DNA from: Fibrisoma montanum
Lineage (GTDB): Bacteria > Bacteroidota > Bacteroidia > Cytophagales > Spirosomataceae
Length of the DNA: 64,000 nucleotides
Reading direction: 5' to 3'
NCBI RefSeq assembly: GCF_003583365.1
Contig: NZ_QXED01000001.1
Location: 1-64,000, forward strand
The position numbers were made by a program, and so were the translations under genes. How positions within the stretch are numbered: the first letter of the stretch is position 1; every line of letters begins with the position of its first letter. Under the pieces are notes generated by a model. The model worked only from the letters and a program-made list of their open reading frames with translations, was not told where the DNA came from and did not search any database. This document shows positions 28,523 to 45,435 of the stretch, piece by piece.

Positions 28523-28981
28523 AACGATGAAATAAACCAGTCAAAGACCGTTAATGAGTAGCTGTTTGTATAAATACAACGTTGGCAATAAGGCTTTCGT
28601 TTCAGAATCAAGACGTTAAACCCACAAATATAAAATAATAAATCTCTGACAATTAACGCTTTATACAAATAATCACTGTCTCTTATTTGAAAAAAAAGCA
28701 CTATAGACTGAGTTACTTCTTTCTATACATACTTCCCGGGCGGTCAGTCACAAAAACGGGAAATGTGGAGTCGGTTCCACAGGATTAGGCACTGTACTTC
28801 ACGCTTTACTCTATCAGGTTAGTCACCTTTCGAGGCCATTTAATCACGTATTGTATTAGTAATCTACAATAACTCATTGCTATACAGCAAGTTCAACAAT
28901 GCCTGCTCCTACTTTTCAGACGCAGCTTACATTCTGGTATGGCATTTGGCAATTACTGGTTAGTAACATGAGTTCCCCACT
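28523..28981. other. AT-rich intergenic region upstream of the OmpA-like operon
   Basis: About 460 bp without a credible gene; possible reading frames are short and lack family signals. It holds the TGTGGA/TCCACA inverted repeat at 28764-28781 and a poor -24/-12-like element (TGGTATGGCATTTGGC) at 28935-28950, whose GG-to-GC distance is one base too long for sigma-54. Divergent promoters for the hydrolase and the OmpA-like gene must lie here. Confidence 0.5.
28764..28781. promoter_or_regulatory. Candidate enhancer dyad TGTGGA-N6-TCCACA
   Basis: Perfect 6-bp arms at 18-bp total length, the same length as the dyad at 34240-34257 and sharing the TGTGGA half-site with the 34.2 kb and 42.9 kb sites. 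It lies about 200 bp upstream of the OmpA-like gene. Assignment to the NtrC-type regulator is inference. Confidence 0.35.
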
Positions 28982-29689
28982 ATGAACAAACAGAATGTAA
29001 ATACGAAGATGATTGCGGTGGCACTGGCAATGAGCCTGCTGACTACCGACGTCCTCACCAGTTGTCAATCTGTCAAACGAAATACAAATAAAACCCAGCG
29101 TGGTGCCGCTATTGGTGCCGGTGCGGGTGCAGTGGTCGGTGGTGTTGTCGGCCGACGGTCAGGTAATACAGCAGTAGGCGCAATTTTGGGTGCCACAGTA
29201 GGTGGTGCAGCCGGTGCTGTTATTGGTCGCCGGATGGACAAACAGGCTGAAGAAATGAAGCGCGACCTGCCCAATGCTCAGGTTGAACGGGTTGGTGAGG
29301 GTATCAAAATTACGTTTGGCTCGGATATACTTTTTGATGTTGACTCCTATCAACTCAAGTCTGAGACAAAACGGCAGCTCACTGAGTTTGCGCAAACCCT
29401 GAATAAGTACGAAGACACTAACATTCTGGTTGAAGGCCACGCCGACGCTACGGGCTCCGACGACTACAACCTGAAGTTATCGCGGCAACGAGCCGATGCT
29501 GTAGCTAATTACTTGCGTGACCAGGGTGTAAAAGCATCCCGGCTCGATGAGAAGGGCTATGGCGAAGAGCAGCCTGTTGCCGATAACAGTTCGGAATCCG
29601 GCCGTCAGAAAAACCGCCGGGTTGACATCGCGGTCTATGCCAATAAGGACATGCAGCGGGCCGCCAAGAAGGGTGCGTTAGACAATTAA
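28982..29689 (+). CDS. OmpA-family lipoprotein with glycine-zipper segment
   Basis: 235 residues. The lipobox ends at about Cys28 (VLTSC). Residues about 40-85 form a glycine-zipper membrane-associated segment (GAAIGAGAGAVVGGVVG, GAILGATVGGAAGAVIG). The C-terminal 120 residues are an OmpA-like peptidoglycan-binding domain: ILFDVDSYQLK, VEGHADATGSDDYNLKLSRQRADAV, RLDEKGYGEEQPVADN and RQKNRRVDI. It probably ties the outer membrane to the wall. It starts a four-gene rightward run with DUF2945, DUF3140 and a PA2169-like gene, at gaps of 25, 17 and 77 bp. Confidence 0.92.
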   Translation: MNKQNVNTKMIAVALAMSLLTTDVLTSCQSVKRNTNKTQRGAAIGAGAGAVVGGVVGRRSGNTAVGAILGATVGGAAGAVIGRRMDKQAEEMKRDLPNAQVERVGEGIKITFGSDILFDVDSYQLKSETKRQLTEFAQTLNKYEDTNILVEGHADATGSDDYNLKLSRQRADAVANYLRDQGVKASRLDEKGYGEEQPVADNSSESGRQKNRRVDIAVYANKDMQRAAKKGALDN

Positions 29690-29714: not shown

Positions 29715-29927
29715 ATGGCAACGGCGAAGAAAGGCGATGAGGTAGAATGGAAGTACGGGAAAGGGAAAGCCTCCGGAACCGTTGCCGAAGTTCATAAAGA
29801 CGATGTCACAAAGAATACGCAGGGGTCAAAAACCAAGCGTAAAGGGTCTGATAAAGAGCCGGCTTTAGTGATCAAACAGGGCGATAAGCAGATTGTGAAG
29901 TCAGCAAGTGAAGTCAAGAAAAAGTAA
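29715..29927 (+). CDS. DUF2945 (hypervirulence-associated Tudor-like) protein
   Basis: 70 residues, Lys-rich. The pattern GDEVEWKYGKGKASGTV near the start and PALVIKQGDKQIVKSASEV near the end is the DUF2945 family, with a small Tudor/SH3-like barrel. It has no signal peptide. From knowledge of the family, it is found in stress clusters with DUF3140, as here, and its role is not established. It lies 25 bp after the OmpA-like gene and 17 bp before the DUF3140 gene. Confidence 0.88.
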   Translation: MATAKKGDEVEWKYGKGKASGTVAEVHKDDVTKNTQGSKTKRKGSDKEPALVIKQGDKQIVKSASEVKKK

Positions 29928-29944
29928 CTGAACGCAGATACGTT

Positions 29945-30310
29945 ATGGCAACCGCAGCAAAAGAAGCTACCGACAAGCAGGAACAGGAAAATCAGCAAAC
30001 TGAAAAAGAGTTTAAGGAACTGGTTAACATGTCTGCTTCGGAGTTGAAAAAGTGGCTTGACACAGACGAGTCAAAATCTGTGGGTCAGAAGAAAGACGAC
30101 GCTAAAGAATCAACCGGTCACGAATCCGGTCGCAAAATCATCGAAATCCTCGACAAGAAAAAGAAGGATTATGATGAAGACGACTACGACCAGATGCATC
30201 GGACCATCAGCTATATCAAGCGGCATATGGCTCAGAAACCAAAGGAAACGGAGGGCAGCAACTGGGCTTATTCGCTGAAGAACTGGGGACACGACCCCAA
30301 TAAAAAATGA
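29945..30310 (+). CDS. DUF3140 protein
   Basis: 121 residues, very hydrophilic. The core is FKELVNMSASELKKWLDTDESKSVGQK, GHESGRKIIEILDKKKKDYDEDDYDQMHRTISYIKRHM and SNWAYSLKNWGHDP, which is diagnostic of DUF3140. Family members often sit next to DUF2945, and the same order occurs here. The function is unknown; a nucleic-acid link has been guessed for the family, but no catalytic or zinc-binding residues stand out. Confidence 0.9.
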   Translation: MATAAKEATDKQEQENQQTEKEFKELVNMSASELKKWLDTDESKSVGQKKDDAKESTGHESGRKIIEILDKKKKDYDEDDYDQMHRTISYIKRHMAQKPKETEGSNWAYSLKNWGHDPNKK

Positions 30311-30327
30311 CCATTACAATTGCTTTC

Positions 30328-30342
30328 TGATTTACTCAACGA
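30328..30342 (+). repeat. Copy 1 of the CTGATTTACTCAACG intergenic repeat
   Basis: The 15-base sequence CTGATTTACTCAACG lies 46 bp upstream of the PA2169-like gene. The same 15 bases occur at 45446-45460 after the second YtxH gene, and a form with two extra bases occurs at 43066-43082. All three are intergenic in the stress island. Confidence 0.4.
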
Positions 30343-30387
30343 CCAGTTAATAGTACACTTGAACACAGTAAGATAGACAAATTGATC

Positions 30388-30843
30388 ATGAACGTTAAAG
30401 AAACACGGGGAGAGATCCTCGACCAGCTCAACAAACTGCTGACCCGTAATCACGATGCCGAAAAAGGGTATCAGGAGGCAGCCGATAATGTAAAAGACGC
30501 CGAACTGAAAAGTCTGTTCCTGGCTCAGTCGCGGCAGCGTAGCGAATTTGGGGGTGAATTAGCCCGCGAAATCCGGACGCTGGGTGGCGACCCTGATAAT
30601 GGTACGAGCTTTGCCGCCGACCTGCATCGGGCTTGGATTAACGTAAAGTCGACTTTTGCCAACAACGACGATAAAGCAACGGTGGAAGAATGCCGTCGGG
30701 GCGACCAGGAGGCCCTCGACGATTACAACACCGTACTGCAAGAAACTGATCTGGTTGCCAGCACGCGTGAAATGTTGCTGCGCCAGAAACAGAGCATCGA
30801 GACAGCCCATGCCTCGATGGCTCGCCTGGCCTTGGTAGTGTAG
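30388..30843 (+). CDS. PA2169-type four-helix-bundle protein
   Basis: 151 residues. It resembles the ferritin-like four-helix family around PA2169/DUF2383, with EILDQLNKLLTRNHDAEKGYQEAADNV, FLAQSRQRSEFGGELAREI, and TVEECRRGDQEALDDYNTVL. The pattern of Glu, Asp and His in helices could bind a metal pair, but I cannot verify a di-iron site. It has no signal peptide, so it is cytoplasmic. The ATG at 30388 is preferred to a TTG six bases upstream. Its own terminator lies directly downstream. Confidence 0.87.
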   Translation: MNVKETRGEILDQLNKLLTRNHDAEKGYQEAADNVKDAELKSLFLAQSRQRSEFGGELAREIRTLGGDPDNGTSFAADLHRAWINVKSTFANNDDKATVEECRRGDQEALDDYNTVLQETDLVASTREMLLRQKQSIETAHASMARLALVV

Positions 30844-33374: not shown

Positions 33375-33794
33375 TTAGTTATACAACGTATCGCGCAGGT
33401 CAATGCCGTAAAACAGCGACGCAGGCGTAGTGGCCGGGTTTTTCAAATCGGCATCCGACTGGTACGCCATTTCCAGAATGCTCACGCAGCTACGGATTGT
33501 CTGCTGACACATTGCATGCACTTGCTGGCAACGATCATGATCGGTAAACTGATTCACTTCCTGTGCACATTTCTCACAAACCTCAATGCAGGCTTTAGCC
33601 AGCAGTCGGGTGTTTTCTGAACCGCGCACATAAAGCATTGCCAACTGACGACACATATCCGCGCAGTCGAGATTAAGAAAAATGCACCGGTACCAGTTTT
33701 CTATGTCCTCTGACCGTGAACATTCGGTAGCAAACTCGTCGCACAGTGCCGCGCAGCCGGTTAGTGAGTCGTAAATATTTTTCTTCCAGATCAT
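33375..33794 (-). CDS. Cys-rich four-helix-bundle protein, probable copper-binding
   Basis: 139 residues with 12 cysteines set along predicted helices (GCAALCDEFATEC, YRCIFLNLDCADMC, KACIEVCEKC, DRCQQVHAMCQQTIRSC). This spacing resembles the DUF326 and copper storage (Csp) type of four-helix bundle, which binds Cu(I) by Cys inside the bundle. No signal peptide, so a cytosolic Csp3-like role is the closest analogy. It is the second gene of an operon after the YdaT-like gene (25-bp gap), and a sigma-54-like promoter stands in front of that gene. Confidence 0.82.
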   Translation of the reverse strand: MIWKKNIYDSLTGCAALCDEFATECSRSEDIENWYRCIFLNLDCADMCRQLAMLYVRGSENTRLLAKACIEVCEKCAQEVNQFTDHDRCQQVHAMCQQTIRSCVSILEMAYQSDADLKNPATTPASLFYGIDLRDTLYN

Positions 33795-33819: not shown

Positions 33820-34050
33820 TTAAAGGGCTCTCTCACGCCGGGCGTATTGACGTGAATGTACGTTTACCATATCCGGCTCAACCGGAGAACGACGGGCCCA
33901 GCGACGAGCCTCATAAATGCTTGTGGCAATTACCTCATTCTTCCCTAATTGCCCCTGCTCCATCAGCAAATTCGCAATTTCAATAGCCTTGGCACGGGTG
34001 CTGGGGCTAAGCGAGCGCATGGCAGCAGGAAAGTGAGTTGTTGTCCACAT
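33820..34050 (-). CDS. Small YdaT/ChaB-like protein
   Basis: 76 residues. The N-terminal part (THFPAAMRSLSPSTRAKAIEIANLLMEQG, then NEVIATSIYEARRW) recalls the short N-terminal segment of Bacillus YdaT-type proteins and ChaB-like folds, in which similar residues precede other domains. I recognise only this similarity, and no function is known. It is the first gene of an operon with the Cys-rich bundle gene. The best sigma-54-like promoter in the window lies 33-48 bp upstream. Confidence 0.72.
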   Translation of the reverse strand: MWTTTHFPAAMRSLSPSTRAKAIEIANLLMEQGQLGKNEVIATSIYEARRWARRSPVEPDMVNVHSRQYARRERAL

Positions 34051-34082: not shown

Positions 34083-34098
34083 TGCCTATTTCGTGCCA
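34083..34098 (-). promoter_or_regulatory. Near-consensus sigma-54 (-24/-12) promoter
   Basis: On the minus strand the bases read TGGCACGAAATAGGCA: a perfect TGGCACG -24 element, then GG-N10-GC spacing, with AGGCA in place of TTGCA at -12. A transcription start is expected near 34072, giving a leader of about 22 bases before the ATG at 34050. The window encodes an NtrC-type activator that would be needed. Confidence 0.6.
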
Positions 34099-34217
34099 GT
34101 CATGTATGGAGTACGTATATAGCTAATTTTACTAAAATAATTTATTCATTATCAGCTTCTTAAAATTCTGTTACGTGAGTAGTTTTCAAGTATTATTCAT
34201 CAAAGGCCAATTGCTAA

Positions 34218-34257
34218 TGTGGAAATTTTACAAGGTCACTGTGTAAAGTTTTACACA
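34218..34257 (-). promoter_or_regulatory. Two dyad sites upstream of the sigma-54-like promoter
   Basis: TGTGGAAATTTTACA (34218-34232) and the near-perfect dyad TGTGTAAAGTTTTACACA (34240-34257, 8-bp arms). Their centres are about 23 bp apart and 128 and 151 bp upstream of the -24 GG. This is the usual place for an NtrC-class enhancer site. The first half-site recurs at 42852. They sit between the promoter and the terminator of the neighbouring gene. Confidence 0.55.
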
Positions 34258-34830: not shown

Positions 34831-34948
34831 AGTATCGCTGTTTTGAAAACTAACCGGCGCGCTCGCTGAATGTTTGCCCGTAGCAGAACACTACGGGATT
34901 ATTTGCCTGCAGATGGGTACAATTTTCCAGACAATGGCTTTTGCCCGC

Positions 34949-36436
34949 TTACTGCTGCTTTGGGAAATATAACCGGAACGTAGTACCGTGGCCCGGCTGA
35001 CTTTCTACTTCGATGCTCCCCCGGTGGCTGTTAACAATGTTCTGGGTAGCGGTAAGCCCCAGCCCCATGCCGCCCGATTTGCCCGTAAAGAACGGATCAA
35101 AGAGCCGTTGCCGGTCTGCTTCCTTAATTCCGCTGCCATTGTCAGAAACCTGAACGAACACCCGATTATCGTCGGTGCAGTCCGTTTTTACGCGCAGTAT
35201 GCCCTGACCGGCTTCCATGGCTTCAACGGCATTAATGAGGATGTTGAGCAGGGCCGTCTTTACCTGCTCGCGGTCAAGCGGAGCGCGGCAGTCATCGGTC
35301 GAAAACTCGGTTTCCAACCGCATGTTTTTTAACTTGATCCGATCAGCCACCAACTGGATGGTAGTCTTCACAACGGGGTTCAGATCCTGCACCTGCCGGT
35401 CGAGCTCGCGGGGCTTCGACGAGTTCAGCATCTCGGTAATGAGCTGCCCGATCCGATCTACGTTCCGACCAATGATGTCGGTGAACATAGTGGTGTATTC
35501 ATCGTCAGTAGGCAACTCTTCCTTAAGCTGCTCCAGCGCCAGGCTCAGGTTTGTCAGCGGATTACGCACTTCGTGAGCAATACTGCGGGCAATCTTGCCG
35601 GTCATGCTTAACTTTTCGGCAATCAATAACTCCTGTTGGGCTTTTTTCTGCTCGGTTATATCCCGCACGATCCCCTGATACCACTGTGGCCGGCCAGACG
35701 CATCTTCGACGGCCCAAACTGAAATCAGGCAGATTCGCTTTCGCCCGCCTTTGCTGTTCAGGACCGTTTCGAAGTCTTTTAGCTGACCATGTTCCCGCAC
35801 GGTGAAGCGCAGTTGGCGGAGGTGGTTAAAGTCAACAAAAAGGCGGGCTGGATTGAGTTGACGCAACTCGTCGCGACTGTAGCCCAGCAGTTTTTCTACC
35901 GACGGATTCGCATCCTGAAACCGCATGAGGCTATCAGCTACGAAAATGGCATCGATAGACCGCTCGAACAACGAGCGATACTTGTTTTCCTTCTCCGCAA
36001 TTTCGGCAAGTACTTCTGCCTGCTTAAGCGCGTACCGGATGCTGCGACCGAGAACCTGCGCATCAATCTGGCCTTTAACCAGATAATCGGCGGCTCCCAG
36101 TTCCAGCGCCGACTGGTCGACGGTCAGGTCGTCCTGCCCCGTCAAAAGGATCATCGGCGCCCGGCATCCCATCCGGAACGCCTGCTGAATAAATTCGATA
36201 CCAGTGCGGCTGCCAAGCCGGTAATCGACCAGATAAATGTCGTAATGTTCGGTTTCTACGGCCGCCAGCGCATTGTCATAATCATCGACCCATTCGAGTC
36301 TGATATTGGCATTCTCACGCCCTGAAACCAGCGTCTTGGTTAAAATATAGTCGTCTTCGTCGTCTTCAACCAGAAGAACGCGAATGGCTGTCTGCTTTCT
36401 TTGCGAAACGTCGAGTGAAAAATCTACAGCATCCAT
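34949..36436 (-). CDS. Receiver-PAS-histidine kinase hybrid
   Basis: 495 residues. A receiver (residues about 18-140) has acidic residues in LLVEDDEDDY, phospho-acceptor Asp in IYLVDYRLGSRTG, and Lys followed by Gly rather than Pro (YLVKGQID). Next comes a PAS domain (about 165-270; YRSLFERSIDAIFVADSL). HisKA has His in ARSIAHEVRNPLTNLSLALEQL. The ATPase has NILINAVEAM, SDNGSGIKEAD and GGMGLGLTATQNIV. Receiver-first hybrids are often fed by another kinase. The RR gene upstream (36448) is 11 bp away, so the two form an operon. Confidence 0.9.
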   Translation of the reverse strand: MDAVDFSLDVSQRKQTAIRVLLVEDDEDDYILTKTLVSGRENANIRLEWVDDYDNALAAVETEHYDIYLVDYRLGSRTGIEFIQQAFRMGCRAPMILLTGQDDLTVDQSALELGAADYLVKGQIDAQVLGRSIRYALKQAEVLAEIAEKENKYRSLFERSIDAIFVADSLMRFQDANPSVEKLLGYSRDELRQLNPARLFVDFNHLRQLRFTVREHGQLKDFETVLNSKGGRKRICLISVWAVEDASGRPQWYQGIVRDITEQKKAQQELLIAEKLSMTGKIARSIAHEVRNPLTNLSLALEQLKEELPTDDEYTTMFTDIIGRNVDRIGQLITEMLNSSKPRELDRQVQDLNPVVKTTIQLVADRIKLKNMRLETEFSTDDCRAPLDREQVKTALLNILINAVEAMEAGQGILRVKTDCTDDNRVFVQVSDNGSGIKEADRQRLFDPFFTGKSGGMGLGLTATQNIVNSHRGSIEVESQPGHGTTFRLYFPKQQ

Positions 36437-36447
36437 ACGGGCGTAGG

Positions 36448-36870
36448 TTATTGAGGAAGTTTAACGGTATCCATCCAGTAGGTTTTCAGGGCACCGATCA
36501 TTTCGACAAGCCGGTTGAAATTGAACGGCTTCGTCACGAACGAGTTAACCCCAAGATTATACGTCTTCACTACATCTTCATCGGCCGATGATGTAGTCAT
36601 CACTACCACAGGCAATCGACGTAATTTCGGGTCTTCTTTAATCTCTTCCAGAGCCTGAAAGCCATTTTTGCGGGGCATGTTCAAGTCGAGAATGAGCAGG
36701 TTTGGCCAGGGAGCGTTCAACTCATTATAGCGGCCAGTATGATGCAGGTATTCCATCAACTCCTCTCCATCTTCTACAAACTGAATTTCCTGGGTATAGC
36801 CATTTTGCCGCAACGCCCGTTCGATGAACATCCGGTCATCTACATCGTCATCGGCAATCAGGATTGTCAT
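36448..36870 (-). CDS. Rcp1-like single-domain response regulator
   Basis: 140 residues from the ATG at 36870 (a slightly longer form starts at 36891). Acidic residues are in IADDDVDDR, the phospho-acceptor Asp62 is in LILDLNMPRKNG, and the Thr/Ser and Lys are in MTTSSADED and FVTKPFNF. The family is the Rcp1 kind that serves phytochrome-like kinases. It is just upstream of the hybrid kinase gene and downstream of the large PAS kinase gene, so it may relay between the two. Confidence 0.88.
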   Translation of the reverse strand: MTILIADDDVDDRMFIERALRQNGYTQEIQFVEDGEELMEYLHHTGRYNELNAPWPNLLILDLNMPRKNGFQALEEIKEDPKLRRLPVVVMTTSSADEDVVKTYNLGVNSFVTKPFNFNRLVEMIGALKTYWMDTVKLPQ

Positions 36871-37061
36871 GGCTGGAAGTTTACGGTGCATACGGTTCGA
36901 TAAAGTTGGTAAAGCAATACTGGTTCGTTACTAGACGATCTTGAGTGATTATGAATTAGCGCGTATATGCCTCCCAATGCGACGTGCCGGACAACACCGG
37001 AAAAGAAGTCTCATTGACAGACAATAATCAGGTTAGTTCAGTCAAATTTACTATAAAACTT

Positions 37062-39707: not shown

Positions 39708-39739
39708 ACTAAGGAACATTGAACAAAATTTCCCCATTT

Positions 39740-39751
39740 TGTGGAAGCACA
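39740..39751. promoter_or_regulatory. TGTG-GAAG-CACA dyad, possible enhancer site
   Basis: The bases TGTGGAAGCACA form TGTG/CACA arms with the TGTGGAA half-site, and AATTTCCCC lies just upstream. It is about 124 bp before the -24 GG of the barrel gene's sigma-54-like element. The match is weaker than at 34.2 and 42.9 kb. Confidence 0.3.
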
Positions 39752-39867
39752 TCCGCACGGAGAAAGAAACTTCAGACTGGAGGGGCAGCGTAAATAATCA
39801 ATCAAAAGTATTGAAAACTCCTGATATATAGACAAAGTGCCGTTCAAAGGGTTAGGCCGGTTAAGAA

Positions 39868-39883
39868 TGGCACGAATTTGTCA
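39868..39883 (+). promoter_or_regulatory. Sigma-54-like -24/-12 element before the barrel gene
   Basis: TGGCACGAATTTGTCA: a perfect TGGCACG at -24, and GG-N10-TC at -12 in place of GC. It is 63 bp before the ATG at 39946. The -12 half is poor, so it is only a candidate. Confidence 0.35.
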
Positions 39884-39945: not shown

Positions 39946-40590
39946 ATGAAAAAACCATTCAACATGCTTTTCCTGACCGCAGCTCTGGCGGTCGGTTCAT
40001 ACGCACTCCAGTCAACAAACGCTCAGGCGCAAACTACCCCACGAGTTGGAATTAAGGGAGGCTTCAACGCGAGTACGTTGTACTACGATAATGATGGAGT
40101 TAGTGACAAGAACGAACGGTATGGCTTCCATGCCGGTGTCTTTGCCCAAATTCCGGCCGGCGACTTCTTTGCCATTCAGCCGGAACTTTTGTATACGACT
40201 AAAGGAGCGTCGGGCAACTACAACATCCTGGGTATTAATGGTACTAATACGTTCCGCCTGAATTATGCCGAACTGCCTGTGCTGGCAACGTTCAAATTAG
40301 GTAACGTAGTGGATCTGCAGCTTGGGCCCTACGTAGCTTACCTGCTAAACTCCGACATTAATTCAAATGGCGATTTTGGTACGGGTGTAGCCCGGATCGA
40401 CCGCGATAATTTTAACAAGGTAGACTACGGCGTAGCGGGTGGTCTGAATCTGTATCTTGGCAAAGCATTGATTGGCGTTCGGTACGGCCAGGGCATCCAG
40501 CGTATCGCCGACAGTGGTGTTGCGCGAACCATTCTGGGTAACGCCAAAAACGGCGTCGGTATGATTTCAATCGGATATAGCTTCAACTAA
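39946..40590 (+). CDS. Outer-membrane beta-barrel (porin-family) protein
   Basis: 214 residues. A signal peptide covers residues 1-25 (ends AQAQ). The mature chain begins RVGIKGGFNASTLYY and has eight or so amphipathic strands with alternating hydrophobic residues (YGFHAGVFAQIP, FFAIQPELLYTTKGA, RLNYAELPVLATFKLG, VDLQLGPYVAYLL, YGVAGGLNLYLGKALIGVRYGQGI), ending in Phe-Asn (ISIGYSFN). This is the small OMP_b-brl_2 type of barrel. The start is the ATG at 39946, not the TTG 12 bases earlier. The sigma-54-like element upstream and a strong terminator downstream make it a single gene. Confidence 0.9.
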   Translation: MKKPFNMLFLTAALAVGSYALQSTNAQAQTTPRVGIKGGFNASTLYYDNDGVSDKNERYGFHAGVFAQIPAGDFFAIQPELLYTTKGASGNYNILGINGTNTFRLNYAELPVLATFKLGNVVDLQLGPYVAYLLNSDINSNGDFGTGVARIDRDNFNKVDYGVAGGLNLYLGKALIGVRYGQGIQRIADSGVARTILGNAKNGVGMISIGYSFN

Positions 40591-40664: not shown

Positions 40665-42137
40665 CTACAGATGAATGTCGTATGCTTTAAGCTTGTTGTA
40701 AAGTGTTTTCCGATCAATGTTAAGCACTTCAGCTGCTTTGGTTTTATTGTAACCAGTCTTTTCGAGGACTTTGAGAATAGCCGCCCGTTCGGCGCTTTCA
40801 GAAACTGACTTAAGGTTATTGGCTGGCTGCGAAATAACGGGTATTCCCGGCCGGAGCGGATCATAACTCACCTGAGCACCACCTGTATCCTCAGCGGTCA
40901 GATACTGTGGCGAAATAATCTCCTGCGGTAACACATCAGCTTCAATATAATCGCTCTGAGTAAGCAGTACCGCCCGCTTGACTACGTTTTGTAACTCACG
41001 CAGGTTACCGTGCCAGTAGTACTCTTTCAGTTTCTCACGGGATTCGTCATCGAAGCCAACTATATCCTTATCGAGTTGTTCGTTGGCCAGCTCAAGAAAA
41101 TGTTCCGCGAAGATCATGATGTCGGCCTTGCGCTCGCGCAGGGGCGACAGGTGAATTTCAAATTCATTGATCCGGTGGTAAATATCCTCCCGGAAACGTC
41201 CCTGCCGAACGGCATCCCGCAGGTCTTCGTTGGTCGCGCAGATAATTCGTACATCGACCGCAACGTCCTGATTGCTGCCAATGCGCCGGATTTTACGCTC
41301 CTGCAGCACCCGCAACAATTTAATCTGATTGTCGTAAGACAGGTTGCCTACTTCATCGAGGAAGAGCGTTCCTCCATTGGCGTATTCAAAACTACCGGCT
41401 TTATCCGACAAAGCCCCCGTAAAGGCACCTTTTACGTGACCGAACAGTTCGCTGCCGGCCAGTTCCTTTGATAAAGCTCCACAGTCAATAGCGACAAACG
41501 GTTTATCGGCTCGTTTGCTCTTGAGGTGGATTGCGTTGGCTACAAACTCCTTTCCCGTACCCGTTTCGCCGGTAATAATGACCGACATATTGGTTGGAGC
41601 AATGAGTTCGACGTGCTTCTGAAGCTGTTCGGCAGCCCGGCTCTTACCAAAGATAAATCGTTTGCCGTTGGGAGCCAGAGATGTTTTGGAAGCAGCTTTA
41701 GGAGCAGTTTTCGGAGCAGCAGTTGCCGGCGAAGCAGTTGCGGCCGACGTAGGCGCGGCTGTGTTCAGCGACTGACTGCGCCGTTCGAGGGCACCTTTGA
41801 TGGTGTATAAAATCTCGTCGGGGTAAAGTGGCTTTGTAACGTAGTCGTAGGCACCGTGCTTAACCGTTTGTACGGCTACCCGCACATCCGAGTACCCTGT
41901 AATGATAATCACGGCCGTTGCCGGATTAAGCACTTTAATCCGGCGGAGCATTTCCAGACCGTCAATATCGGGTAATTTAAAGTCGCAGATTACTAACTCA
42001 AACGGCTCCTTTCGCAATAAGACGAGACCATCCTCCCCCCGTTGCGCTGAAGCCGTTTTATAGCCTTGCTTGCTCAGGAAACGCTCTAACAGCAAGCATA
42101 TATCATTATTATCGTCAACTATCAGAATCTTTTCCAT
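40665..42137 (-). CDS. NtrC-family sigma-54-dependent response regulator
   Basis: 490 residues from the ATG at 42137. The receiver has phospho-acceptor Asp52 in VICDFKLPDIDG and Lys in YVTKPLYPD. An Ala/Thr/Pro-rich linker follows (residues about 125-155). The AAA+ domain (about 165-395) has Walker A GETGTGKE, the sigma-54-contacting GAFTGA loop (GHVKGAFTGALSDKAG), Walker B GGTLFLDEVG, and R-fingers in RFREDIYHRI. The C-terminal Fis HTH is KTKAAEVLNIDRKTLYNKLKAYDIHL. All motifs needed for activation are intact. It is the only sigma-54 activator in the window, and the candidate -24/-12 elements nearby are its likely targets. Another receiver gene lies 98 bp upstream. Confidence 0.95.
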   Translation of the reverse strand: MEKILIVDDNNDICLLLERFLSKQGYKTASAQRGEDGLVLLRKEPFELVICDFKLPDIDGLEMLRRIKVLNPATAVIIITGYSDVRVAVQTVKHGAYDYVTKPLYPDEILYTIKGALERRSQSLNTAAPTSAATASPATAAPKTAPKAASKTSLAPNGKRFIFGKSRAAEQLQKHVELIAPTNMSVIITGETGTGKEFVANAIHLKSKRADKPFVAIDCGALSKELAGSELFGHVKGAFTGALSDKAGSFEYANGGTLFLDEVGNLSYDNQIKLLRVLQERKIRRIGSNQDVAVDVRIICATNEDLRDAVRQGRFREDIYHRINEFEIHLSPLRERKADIMIFAEHFLELANEQLDKDIVGFDDESREKLKEYYWHGNLRELQNVVKRAVLLTQSDYIEADVLPQEIISPQYLTAEDTGGAQVSYDPLRPGIPVISQPANNLKSVSESAERAAILKVLEKTGYNKTKAAEVLNIDRKTLYNKLKAYDIHL

Positions 42138-42235: not shown

Positions 42236-42601
42236 TCAAACCTGAATGGTTTGCAAAGCCTGTTCAATGGAACGGCGCGTAAAGGGTTTTCCGATAAAAT
42301 AATCGGCTCCCTGCTCAGTAGCCCGACGACGTTCAGCCTGTCCGTCGAAGGCGCTGATCATAACAACTTTGGCCTCAGACTGCCCTTCTTTGATGTGCGG
42401 CAATAAATCGAACCCAATGCCATCCGGCAAATTCAGATCAAGAAAAACAGCATCAAACTGTTGAGTTGTCAGAAACTGACGTCCCTCTTCAATGAAGTGT
42501 GCGCAGGTGGGCTGGTATCCCAGGCGACGTAATAAACCGGATAATAATAAACATATATCCGACTCATCGTCGATAATTAACACCCTTTTTACGCTGCTCA
42601 T
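42236..42601 (-). CDS. Single-domain response regulator next to the NtrC-type gene
   Basis: 121 residues from the ATG at 42601. Acidic residues are in LIIDDESDICLLL, the phospho-acceptor Asp55 is in FLDLNLPDGIGFDLL, and Lys is in YFIGKPFTRRS. Its start (ICLLLSGLLRRLGYQ) is like that of the NtrC-type receiver, so the two may be related by duplication. No output domain. It lies upstream of the NtrC-type gene on the same strand, 98 bp away, and may share its transcript. Confidence 0.87.
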   Translation of the reverse strand: MSSVKRVLIIDDESDICLLLSGLLRRLGYQPTCAHFIEEGRQFLTTQQFDAVFLDLNLPDGIGFDLLPHIKEGQSEAKVVMISAFDGQAERRRATEQGADYFIGKPFTRRSIEQALQTIQV

Positions 42602-42797
42602 CGTGTTTATTACGGCCGGTCTAAACTGTTGCCCCGCGTTCACACCCCTTATATTCCCTACCACGGTGTAAATGAATTAATGTTGTGTACTATTAACTGT
42701 ATATAAAATTTAATGCCGAATATGTATGATACACTGAAGTTTAAAGTTTTATAATTGATAAAGTGCAATAAAAGAACTACTTACGCTAAAATAGAGC
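42602..42797. other. AT-rich intergenic region upstream of the NtrC-type operon
   Basis: About 200 bp of AT-rich sequence without a gene. It must carry the promoter of the leftward receiver and NtrC-type pair; I see no clear -7 or -24/-12 element for that side. The dyad cluster begins just to its right. Confidence 0.4.
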
Positions 42798-42899
42798 AAT
42801 TTCCACCTTTATTAATCGCAATTTTCACTTCAATCATTGGTATACCATACCGTGGAAATTCTACACAATTTTCTACACCTGTGGATTTTTGTCTACACA
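42798..42899. promoter_or_regulatory. Cluster of TGTGGAAA/TTTACACA-type half-sites
   Basis: AATTTCCAC (42798-42806), GTGGAAATTCTACAC (42852-42866), TTTTCTACACC (42869-42879), and TGTGGATTTTTGTCTACACA (42880-42899). The second nearly repeats the 34218 site. The dyad centres (about 42859 and 42889) lie 161 and 131 bp upstream of the -24 GG at 43020. It is shared between the NtrC-type operon and the small membrane gene, so autoregulation is possible. Confidence 0.5.
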
Positions 42900-43018
42900 T
42901 TTATAATGTACCCTAAACCTGACAGGATGATACAACTTTTCACTTTACACTTTATTTAAAGCTCATTTACAAGCGTATACAATGATCTGCCACCAATTTT
43001 GGCTTAACCAATTCTGTT

Positions 43019-43034
43019 TGGCATAACTTTTTCT
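43019..43034 (+). promoter_or_regulatory. Sigma-54-like element before the 53-aa membrane gene
   Basis: TGGCATAACTTTTTCT: TGGCAT at -24 and GG-N10-TC at -12 (TTTCT for TTGCT). A related TGGCTTAACCAATTCT lies at 43000-43015. The ATG is 51 bp further on. The -12 base change makes this a candidate only. Confidence 0.35.
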
Positions 43035-43084: not shown

Positions 43085-43246
43085 ATGGGAAATCTGTTGT
43101 ACACGATTGCCGTTATCCTGATCATAGTCTGGTTGTTAGGCTTTCTTGGGTTCAACAGTTTCGGACTGGGCAATCTGATTCACGTCCTGCTGGTGATTGC
43201 GATCATTGCGATTGTGCTCCGCCTGATTCAGGGACGAGGAGTATAG
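43085..43246 (+). CDS. Lmo0937-type small membrane protein (53 aa)
   Basis: 53 residues, read directly from the sequence: ATG at 43085 and TAG at 43244-43246. The product starts MGNLLYTIAVILIIVWLLGF, then LGFNSFGLGNLIHVLLVIAIIAIVLRLIQGRG, two hydrophobic helices with a Gly-rich turn. This matches the Lmo0937 family of tiny membrane proteins, common in stress clusters of Bacteroidetes and Firmicutes. It is preceded by the enhancer-like cluster and the -24/-12-like element, and followed by non-coding sequence that ends at a terminator. Confidence 0.85.
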   Translation: MGNLLYTIAVILIIVWLLGFLGFNSFGLGNLIHVLLVIAIIAIVLRLIQGRGV

Positions 43247-44637: not shown

Positions 44638-44649
44638 TGTAGAATTTTA
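44638..44649 (+). promoter_or_regulatory. TGTAGAATTTTA, weak candidate enhancer half-site
   Basis: It resembles the half-site TGTGGAAATTTTA of 34218 with a few changes, and lies about 90 bp before the -24 GG at 44734. A single weak copy, so it is a low-confidence call. Confidence 0.2.
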
Positions 44650-44732
44650 TCCTCAACTATTGCGAATCAACCACTTAGAAGATATTTAAGTAAAAATCTA
44701 TCAATCAACACCTTATGGCGTTAAGAAGAAAG

Positions 44733-44748
44733 TGGTACAAAATTTTCT
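44733..44748 (+). promoter_or_regulatory. Sigma-54-like element before the first YtxH gene
   Basis: TGGTACAAAATTTTCT: GG-N10-TC spacing with TGGTACA at -24 and TTTCT at -12. The same -12 form (TTTCT) is seen at 43019-43034. The ATG is 43 bp beyond. Confidence 0.35.
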
Positions 44749-44790: not shown

Positions 44791-45042
44791 ATGAAATCGT
44801 TACCTGGCATTCTTATAGGACTTGCAGTGGGCGCTGTCGTCGGTGTTATGCTGGCTCCGCAAAGTGGTCGCAAGACTCGCAAGCGGATTACGTCCGAATC
44901 AGATTCATTTTTCAAGGACTTGCAGGATCAACTGCAGTCAGGCCTTGAGAATATCAAGAATCAATACAACGATTACGTTGATACGGCCGCGACCCGATCG
45001 CAGGAACTAGTGAGCCGGGCCGAACGCCGGACCAAGAAATAA
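44791..45042 (+). CDS. YtxH-type small envelope stress protein 1
   Basis: 83 residues. One N-terminal hydrophobic helix with Gly pattern (GILIGLAVGAVVGVMLAPQSGRKTR) and a charged coiled-coil tail (FKDLQDQLQSGLENIKNQYNDY). This is the YtxH domain: a single membrane helix, then APxSGxxTR, found in general-stress proteins. It is followed by a second YtxH gene, 24 bp away, and the two are probably one operon. Confidence 0.9.
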   Translation: MKSLPGILIGLAVGAVVGVMLAPQSGRKTRKRITSESDSFFKDLQDQLQSGLENIKNQYNDYVDTAATRSQELVSRAERRTKK

Positions 45043-45066: not shown

Positions 45067-45435
45067 ATGAGAAGCACAAGAGATTTTCTGACGGGTATTA
45101 TAACAGGGATTGCAATTGGTATGTTGACCGCCCCTCGCAGTGGTAAAGAAACCCGCGACAAACTGGTTGACGAAGCAAACAAACGTTCTGGCGACCTGAA
45201 AGATCAGTGGAGCAAAGGCGTTGAGCAGGTAAAACAAGGCTATGAGCAGGCGAAAACACAGGTTAACGAGTACGCTCAGCAGGCTAAAGATCAGATCAAT
45301 CAATACAAGGATAAAGCTCAGTCTGAGACCAATCAGGATCAGGCTAAGCAGCAGTATAATAATCAGGTTGACAACCTGGCAAACAAGGCCGAATCAGGTA
45401 TTGAGGATGCCCGTGGCGCTGTTCGCGTAAGCTAA
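45067..45435 (+). CDS. YtxH-type small envelope stress protein 2, with long coiled coil
   Basis: 122 residues. The N-terminal helix (LTGIITGIAIGMLTAPRSGKETRDKL) is the YtxH domain; the remaining 80 residues form a Gln/Lys/Asn/Ala-rich coiled coil with repeats (QVKQGYEQAKTQVNEYAQQAKDQINQYKDKAQ). Such tails resemble LEA-like or apolipoprotein-like helices that may cover membranes. It ends 42 bp before a clear terminator and before the repeat copy at 45446. Confidence 0.88.
   Translation: MRSTRDFLTGIITGIAIGMLTAPRSGKETRDKLVDEANKRSGDLKDQWSKGVEQVKQGYEQAKTQVNEYAQQAKDQINQYKDKAQSETNQDQAKQQYNNQVDNLANKAESGIEDARGAVRVS

Follow-up and report, generated by a model that had tools for sequence, protein, structure and literature searches.

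NtrC-class activators bind paired dyads about 80-200 bp upstream of -24/-12 promoters. As for the promoters themselves, the accessible part of a comparative study published in 2025 gives the sigma-54 consensus as TGGCACN5-7TTGCT and states that deviating promoters are missed, while some validated E. coli sigma-54 promoters deviate at -12 too (PMC12316311). According to the accessible portions of other papers, a role of sigma-54 as controller of the bacterial exterior has been proposed (PMC3162934), envelope-stress genes of Flavobacterium psychrophilum have mapped sigma-54 promoters with typical -24/-12 elements (PMC9723704), and lmo0937 is lowered in a Listeria sigB-sigL double mutant (PMC7690807). 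No paper describing the gene island considered below stood among the titles listed in searches of the open-licence PMC literature.

The locus lies in a 64-kb stretch (hereafter the window) of the 7.8-Mb genome of Fibrisoma montanum. The predicted -24/-12 promoter of its small-protein/DUF326 operon, TGGCACGAAATAGGCA, occupies positions 34083-34098 of the minus strand, 33-48 bp 5' of the ATG at 34050. This position and the spacings between the promoter and two upstream elements had been given in a preliminary description and proved correct on re-reading, and both the -24 GG and the -12 GC (10 bp after GG) are present. The operon encodes a 76-aa small protein (33820-34050, minus strand), which has a sub-threshold DUF2188 match only, and a Cys-rich protein (33375-33794, minus strand) assigned to the DUF326 family with 20.7 bits at a cut-off of 20.4; the latter is distantly Csp1-like, reaching 30.3 of the 100 bits set as the cut-off for the Csp1 copper storage protein (TIGR04401). 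Taken alone, the -24/-12 motif is at chance level, because TGGCA-N8-GCA has nine mismatch-free matches in the window and 69 with at most one mismatch against 61.6 expected, the score of TGGCACGAAATAGGCA (13.6) was equalled to one decimal in 8 of 8 simulated first-order Markov windows, and TGGCACG-N6-GCW has 13 matches genome-wide against 26 for its reversed control. It is conservation, not the motif match alone, that makes the combination of promoter and dyad stand out. The DUF326 gene is carried by 23 loci of Fibrisoma, Spirosoma, Fibrella, Fibrivirga and Larkinella (the best protein match among named genomes being Fibrisoma limi, 94% identical, locus L060), and the small-protein gene precedes it in all 23. 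All 23 upstream regions compared (the window and 22 loci, L073 having been dropped because its contig is too short) have TGGCAY 45-58 bp ahead of the small-protein start. With family genomes added the motif stands 35-75 bp before the start in 49 of 49 recognised regions, 36 of them distinct after removal of 13 duplicates; three of the 29 loci L031-L059 were left out because the start pattern failed to recognise them. The same scan over other genes of these loci gave 1/19 for RR2, 1/6 for the lipoprotein, 1/2 for RR1, 7/19 for OmpA, 1/11 for YtxH and 0 for the rest, and the partially positive OmpA and YtxH genes were later recognised as targets that carry TGGTAY.

The two upstream elements, described earlier as two dyads, TGTAAAATTTCCACA at 34218-34232 and TGTGTAAAACTTTACACA at 34240-34257, were placed correctly, and the outer one is indeed a conserved dyad; the inner one is conserved mainly as one half-site, and after comparison of upstream regions the reading of two equivalent dyads was replaced by that of a dyad and a half-site. 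The predicted enhancer dyad, TGTGTAAA-N2-TTTACACA (34240-34257), stands 141 bp from TGGCA and has the highest score in the window (21.4 bits). As a pattern of 18 bp it is the sole window match at up to three mismatches, where 0.22 were expected and 20 of 100 shuffles had one. In the predicted second element (34218-34232, minus strand) the conserved part is a TTYYACA half-site, 20-22 bp from the inner half-site of the dyad. When the regions are aligned by TGGCA, repeated TTCYACA / TGTRGAA half-sites are seen upstream of the small-protein promoters and also of the promoters of an outer-membrane barrel gene; they resolve into a dyad of 18 bp, TGKRKA-N6-TMYMCA, to which most regions add a further half-site at a distance of 20-22 bp. 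With at most one mismatch the dyad is present in 36/36 small-protein, 15/15 lmo0937 and 15/18 barrel regions, being weaker in the last, and in the 36 distinct small-protein regions TGGCAY and this dyad are kept at fixed, helically phased distances.

The same dyad together with TGGYAY occurs at four more promoters of the window, those of an OmpA-like gene (28982), the barrel gene (39946), an lmo0937-family gene (43085) and a YtxH gene (44791); dyads upstream of other -24 promoters in relatives, on which the preliminary description had made its proposal depend, were thus found at four further types. The OmpA/glycine-zipper promoter, the fourth type to be found, has an exact dyad (28764-28781, 16.5 bits) and the promoter TGGTATGGCATTTGGCA (28935-28951, plus strand), which begins 47 bp before the ORF of the OmpA-domain/glycine-zipper protein (28982-29689, plus strand) and shows TGGTAY in 18 of 18 regions. 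Genes for Hva1-TUDOR, DUF3140 and DUF2383 proteins (29715-30843) follow the OmpA-like gene and may share its transcript. The enhancer of the barrel gene (39729-39757, plus strand) consists of a half-site and a dyad at 39740-39757 (16.0 bits), and is followed by the promoter TGGCACGAATTTGTCA (39868-39883, plus strand) and the gene for the outer membrane beta-barrel protein (39946-40590, plus strand, PF13568), with TGGCAY 29-75 bp before the extrapolated protein start in 18 of 18 regions. The lmo0937 promoter, third to be found and detected through a composite pattern, combines TGGCATAACTTTTTCT (43019-43034, plus strand) with a half-site array (the whole spanning 42859-43034), in which the enhancer at 42859-42897 (plus strand) comprises several half-sites including a dyad at 42880-42897 (19.1 bits). 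It precedes a 53-aa membrane protein of the lmo0937 family/DUF5670 (43085-43246, plus strand; 64.5 bits at a cut-off of 30), an ORF below the 60-aa limit of the ORF list, and TGGCAY is present in 15 of 15 usable regions, L062 having been left out because its upstream region ends with the locus. Between this enhancer and promoter, at about 42961-42974, GCTCATTTACAAGC or a close variant is conserved, as judged by eye, in Fibrisoma and Spirosoma, and it has no match to the IHF consensus. YtxH is the fifth type, found by a dyad matrix: its enhancer dyad TGTAGAATTTTATCCTCA (44638-44655, plus strand, 18.8 bits) and promoter TGGTACAAAATTTTCT (44733-44748, plus strand) precede two YtxH proteins (44791-45042 and 45067-45435, plus strand; PF12732, 66.6 and 62.8 bits at a cut-off of 37.5), and TGGTAY with a dyad of at least 15.3 bits recurs in 11 of 11 further loci. 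Altogether, the -24 GG within TGGYAY is found in 23/23 small-protein, 18/18 barrel, 18/18 OmpA, 12/12 YtxH (11 loci and the window) and 15/15 usable lmo0937 regions.

Four of the five promoter types, all but YtxH, went into the training of the dyad matrix, so the high scores of these four arise by construction and the informative evidence is therefore YtxH, the scarcity of other sites and the distant loci. The window contains five dyads of 16.0-21.4 bits, one per promoter; the next best (12.2 bits, at 34914) is not accompanied, as judged by eye, by a TGGYAY ahead of the lipoprotein start. Within 449 kb of related loci 79 dyads reach at least 13.5 bits and 78 of them stand at the five promoter types (22 small-protein, 17 OmpA, 14 lmo0937, 14 barrel and 11 YtxH), the remaining dyad (L063, position 48) being at a locus edge with ytxH expected just outside. 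Searched alone over four genomes, the dyad occurs in 27 places against 12 for the control, 11 of the 27 within the island. The window's genome has seven exact dyads, four of them off the island, and no conserved -24 motif was found at the off-island ones when two genomes were compared. In three cases (L162/L164, L163/L165 and L147/L150) an off-island dyad is conserved in both genomes of the genus, the genes behind two of them being a putative NlpC/P60-like gene (L162, L164) and a putative parA (L147, L150). As sigma-54 targets these were rejected: the TGGCAT downstream of the L162/L164 dyad is inside a coding frame, the parA dyad has no TGGYAY at 80-175 bp, and that of L163, before another small ORF, has TGGCAT 97 bp away with no counterpart in the second genome (L165). 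The L151 dyad, likewise discarded, is part of a longer inverted repeat. The composite pattern occurs 70 times against 26 in 14 genomes and TGGCAYRAWWTTNNCA 13 times against 6 for the control in ten genomes; defining the regulon by genome-wide patterns was given up as too weak, judging by TGGCAYRAWWTTNNCA and by the TGGCACG-N6-GCW counts given above.

Outside these relatives, the ntrC neighbourhood was retrieved from six of the 25 genomes whose ntrC is 51-55% identical, one per genus. Over 114 kb these loci contain 14 dyads scoring 13.5 bits or more (4, 3, 2, 1, 4 and 0) against one in a background of 27 loci and 88 kb, with a matrix untrained on these loci, and the dyads are enriched around ntrC in five of the six. 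For dyads of at least 11 bits, TGGYAY follows 60-175 bp downstream in 4 of 17, with TGGCA nearer in three more as judged by eye. In all six loci an rpoN gene with all three sigma-54 domains directly precedes ntrC on the same strand (L206, 7182-8612; L207, 7453-8907; L208, 7204-8637; L209, 10394-11836; L210, 7634-9058; L211, 10689-12149), and this adjacency is a link between the dyad-bearing island and sigma-54 that does not depend on the promoter motif. Five of these RpoN proteins (L211 left out) are 49-80% identical to one another and 40-44% identical to the RpoN of the window's genome, the latter value suggesting that the distant island rpoN may be a dedicated sigma-54 paralog.

The geometry of the sites agrees with the NtrC-class arrangement, as expected in the preliminary description: the gaps between dyad and TGGYA range over 66-164 bp and are helically phased. 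They cluster at 66, 77-78, 98-101, 108-111, 118-122, 129-132, 137-143, 152-155 and 164 bp and fit a period of 10.8 bp (14 class-by-class values in hand-set clusters, R 0.81, p 5e-5 versus uniform gaps), a p-value that is indicative only because the lineages are related. Between dyad and promoter of the small-protein operon the site TAAGAAGCTGATA (reverse of WATCARNNNNTTR; 34150-34162, minus strand) matches the IHF consensus. Perfect matches to this consensus are present in 15/36 small-protein, 8/18 OmpA and 6/12 YtxH regions, where shuffles gave 0.81, 0.45 and 0.19, and in none of the barrel (0/18) or lmo0937 (0/15) regions. In L032 and L039 the enhancer is shifted by one turn and the IHF-like site is shifted along with it. 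A motif search of the small-protein regions reached 496 bits, where ten shuffles gave no more than 306, with 3 restarts per shuffle and 15 for the real set. One gene of the HU/IHF family (PF00216) was found in the window's genome.

The proposed activator is an NtrC-type response regulator encoded at 40665-42137 (minus strand) with a receiver, an AAA+ sigma-54-interaction domain and a Fis-type HTH, as befits an enhancer-binding protein, and its translation confirms the intact GAFTGA loop reported earlier. Also syntenic are the genes for a receiver-PAS-histidine kinase (34949-36436, minus strand), a candidate partner kinase, and a single-domain response regulator (36448-36891, minus strand); a second single-domain response regulator (42236-42664, minus strand) lies directly 5' of ntrC, and both of them have a receiver domain only. 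The window's genome has one PF04552 (RpoN) match, carrying ARRTVAKYR and all three sigma-54 domains. For 8 of 11 Spirosoma and all six Larkinella, ntrC, the barrel gene, the kinase and the small-protein operon lie together in the fetched locus; the genomes of the remaining three Spirosoma (L061, L067, L068) have an ntrC of 84-88% identity at another place. The fetched 20 kb of four Fibrella/Fibrivirga loci contain no ntrC and the DUF326 operon there retains its dyad, and the ntrC of Fibrella-type genomes has dyad-bearing barrel and/or lmo0937 promoters alongside, with DUF326 outside the same 20 kb. Among 121 family genomes sampled, those with an ntrC of at least 79% identity and those with a strong small-protein match (a best E of 9e-16 or lower, the next genome reaching 5e-7) are one and the same set of 33, a co-occurrence that follows seven related genera; below these thresholds the overlap is loose, with 13 genomes shared between the 23 with a weak small-protein match and the 25 with a 51-55% identical ntrC.

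It can be said, with a probability of roughly 0.85 as judged from sequence comparison, that enhancer and promoter here serve one unit out of five in a local sigma-54 regulon under the island ntrC. A neighbouring histidine kinase would presumably phosphorylate the NtrC-type activator (40665-42137), which would bind the dyad TGKRKA-N6-TMYMCA and the flanking half-site; the DNA would then loop, with an IHF-like bending protein assisting at three of the five promoter types, and RNA polymerase-sigma-54 held at TGGYAY (-24) would be remodelled by the activator, so that the stress/envelope genes (OmpA-like, small protein/DUF326, outer-membrane barrel, lmo0937-family and YtxH) may be induced together. 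The sequences themselves show the conserved sites and their phasing, the co-occurrence and, in distant loci, the adjacent rpoN; binding and phosphorylation of the activator, dependence on sigma-54, the inducing signal and a role in stress are what we infer. The preliminary description is right on promoter and enhancer and probably right on the identity of the regulator. Its proposal that the NtrC-type gene turns on this operon is favoured by conservation, recurrence and co-occurrence, with two amendments: the likely targets are five and not one, and the -12 element is atypical and weaker than that reading implied.

This element also bears on a rival reading, in which another sigma factor, for example an ECF sigma, would read TGGYAYRAWWTT and an ordinary activator or repressor would use the dyad. 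Most promoters lack GC at -12, which is present in 17 of 99, all of them of the small-protein type (17/36), and in 0 of 63 of the other four types, which mostly have TTTC, TTTGG or nnC; such a reading could also draw on the three conserved off-island dyads, placed before genes without a conserved -24 motif. Nevertheless, 92 of 99 promoters retain G13 or C14, TGGYA is present in 99 of 99 rows (aligned by TGGYA, with no usable region lacking it), validated E. coli sigma-54 promoters deviating at -12 exist according to the accessible part of the source (PMC12316311), and sigma-54 agrees with the phased dyads at a distance, the IHF sites, the NtrC gene and the adjacent rpoN, all of which makes a different sigma factor quite unlikely. 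Slightly less improbable is that sites and sigma-54 promoters are real and the dyads are bound by a different regulator, an NtrC paralog or another island regulator, given that the window's genome has 11 strong sigma-54-activator AAA+ matches and the island encodes single-domain response regulators too. Against this, the dyads are enriched around this very ntrC even at 50-55% identity and amid other gene content, they accompany it at barrel and/or lmo0937 promoters in Fibrella-type genomes without DUF326 in 20 kb, ntrC and the small protein share the same 33 of 121 genomes, and the two single-domain regulators show a receiver domain alone. Chance resemblance without function could appeal to the chance-level -24/-12 match alone, but it is rejected as practically negligible because of the conservation, together with the recurrence at five promoter types.

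With respect to the origin of the local regulon under the island ntrC, a tentative scenario, possible rather than probable, is that of a self-contained, family-wide stress island whose activator would travel in distant genera together with a dedicated sigma-54; the Spirosoma-Fibrisoma-Larkinella branch would have lost this sigma and kept the enhancers, and the odd -12 would reflect either the dedicated factor or the change to the general RpoN. Both the drift at -12 and the island rpoN are relevant to the evolution of sigma-54 specificity. Moreover, the sites amount to a predicted cis-code (enhancer, bend, -24) for an apparently uncharacterised sigma-54 regulon in Spirosoma relatives, by which genes of unknown function (DUF326, DUF5670/lmo0937, YtxH and the 76-aa protein) would be linked to one switch.

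In comparison with known systems, the island shares with those of the NtrC/AtoC type (AtoSC, ZraSR, NtrBC) a receiver-AAA+-Fis-HTH regulator, a PAS histidine kinase, dyads upstream of -24 (here 66-164 bp) and, at three promoter types, IHF-consensus sites between them. In contrast to these systems, it has a dyad of its own, stress/envelope targets and an atypical -12, and its regulator is below the NCBIfam curated cut-offs for AtoC (396/714 bits), NtrC (386/559) and ZraR (376/760). The sigma-54 (SM4) regulon of F. psychrophilum, as far as the accessible part of its description goes, likewise belongs to Bacteroidota and comprises protein-quality and envelope-stress genes, including an OmpA-like lipoprotein, but it is a different, genome-wide gene set to which that part assigns no enhancer site (PMC9723704). 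The Listeria SigB regulon has lmo0937 in common with the island, the gene being listed as SigB-dependent in the accessible part of the source (PMC2813243); SigB, however, is of another sigma-factor class, whereas the island homologue of lmo0937 stands under a sigma-54-type promoter.
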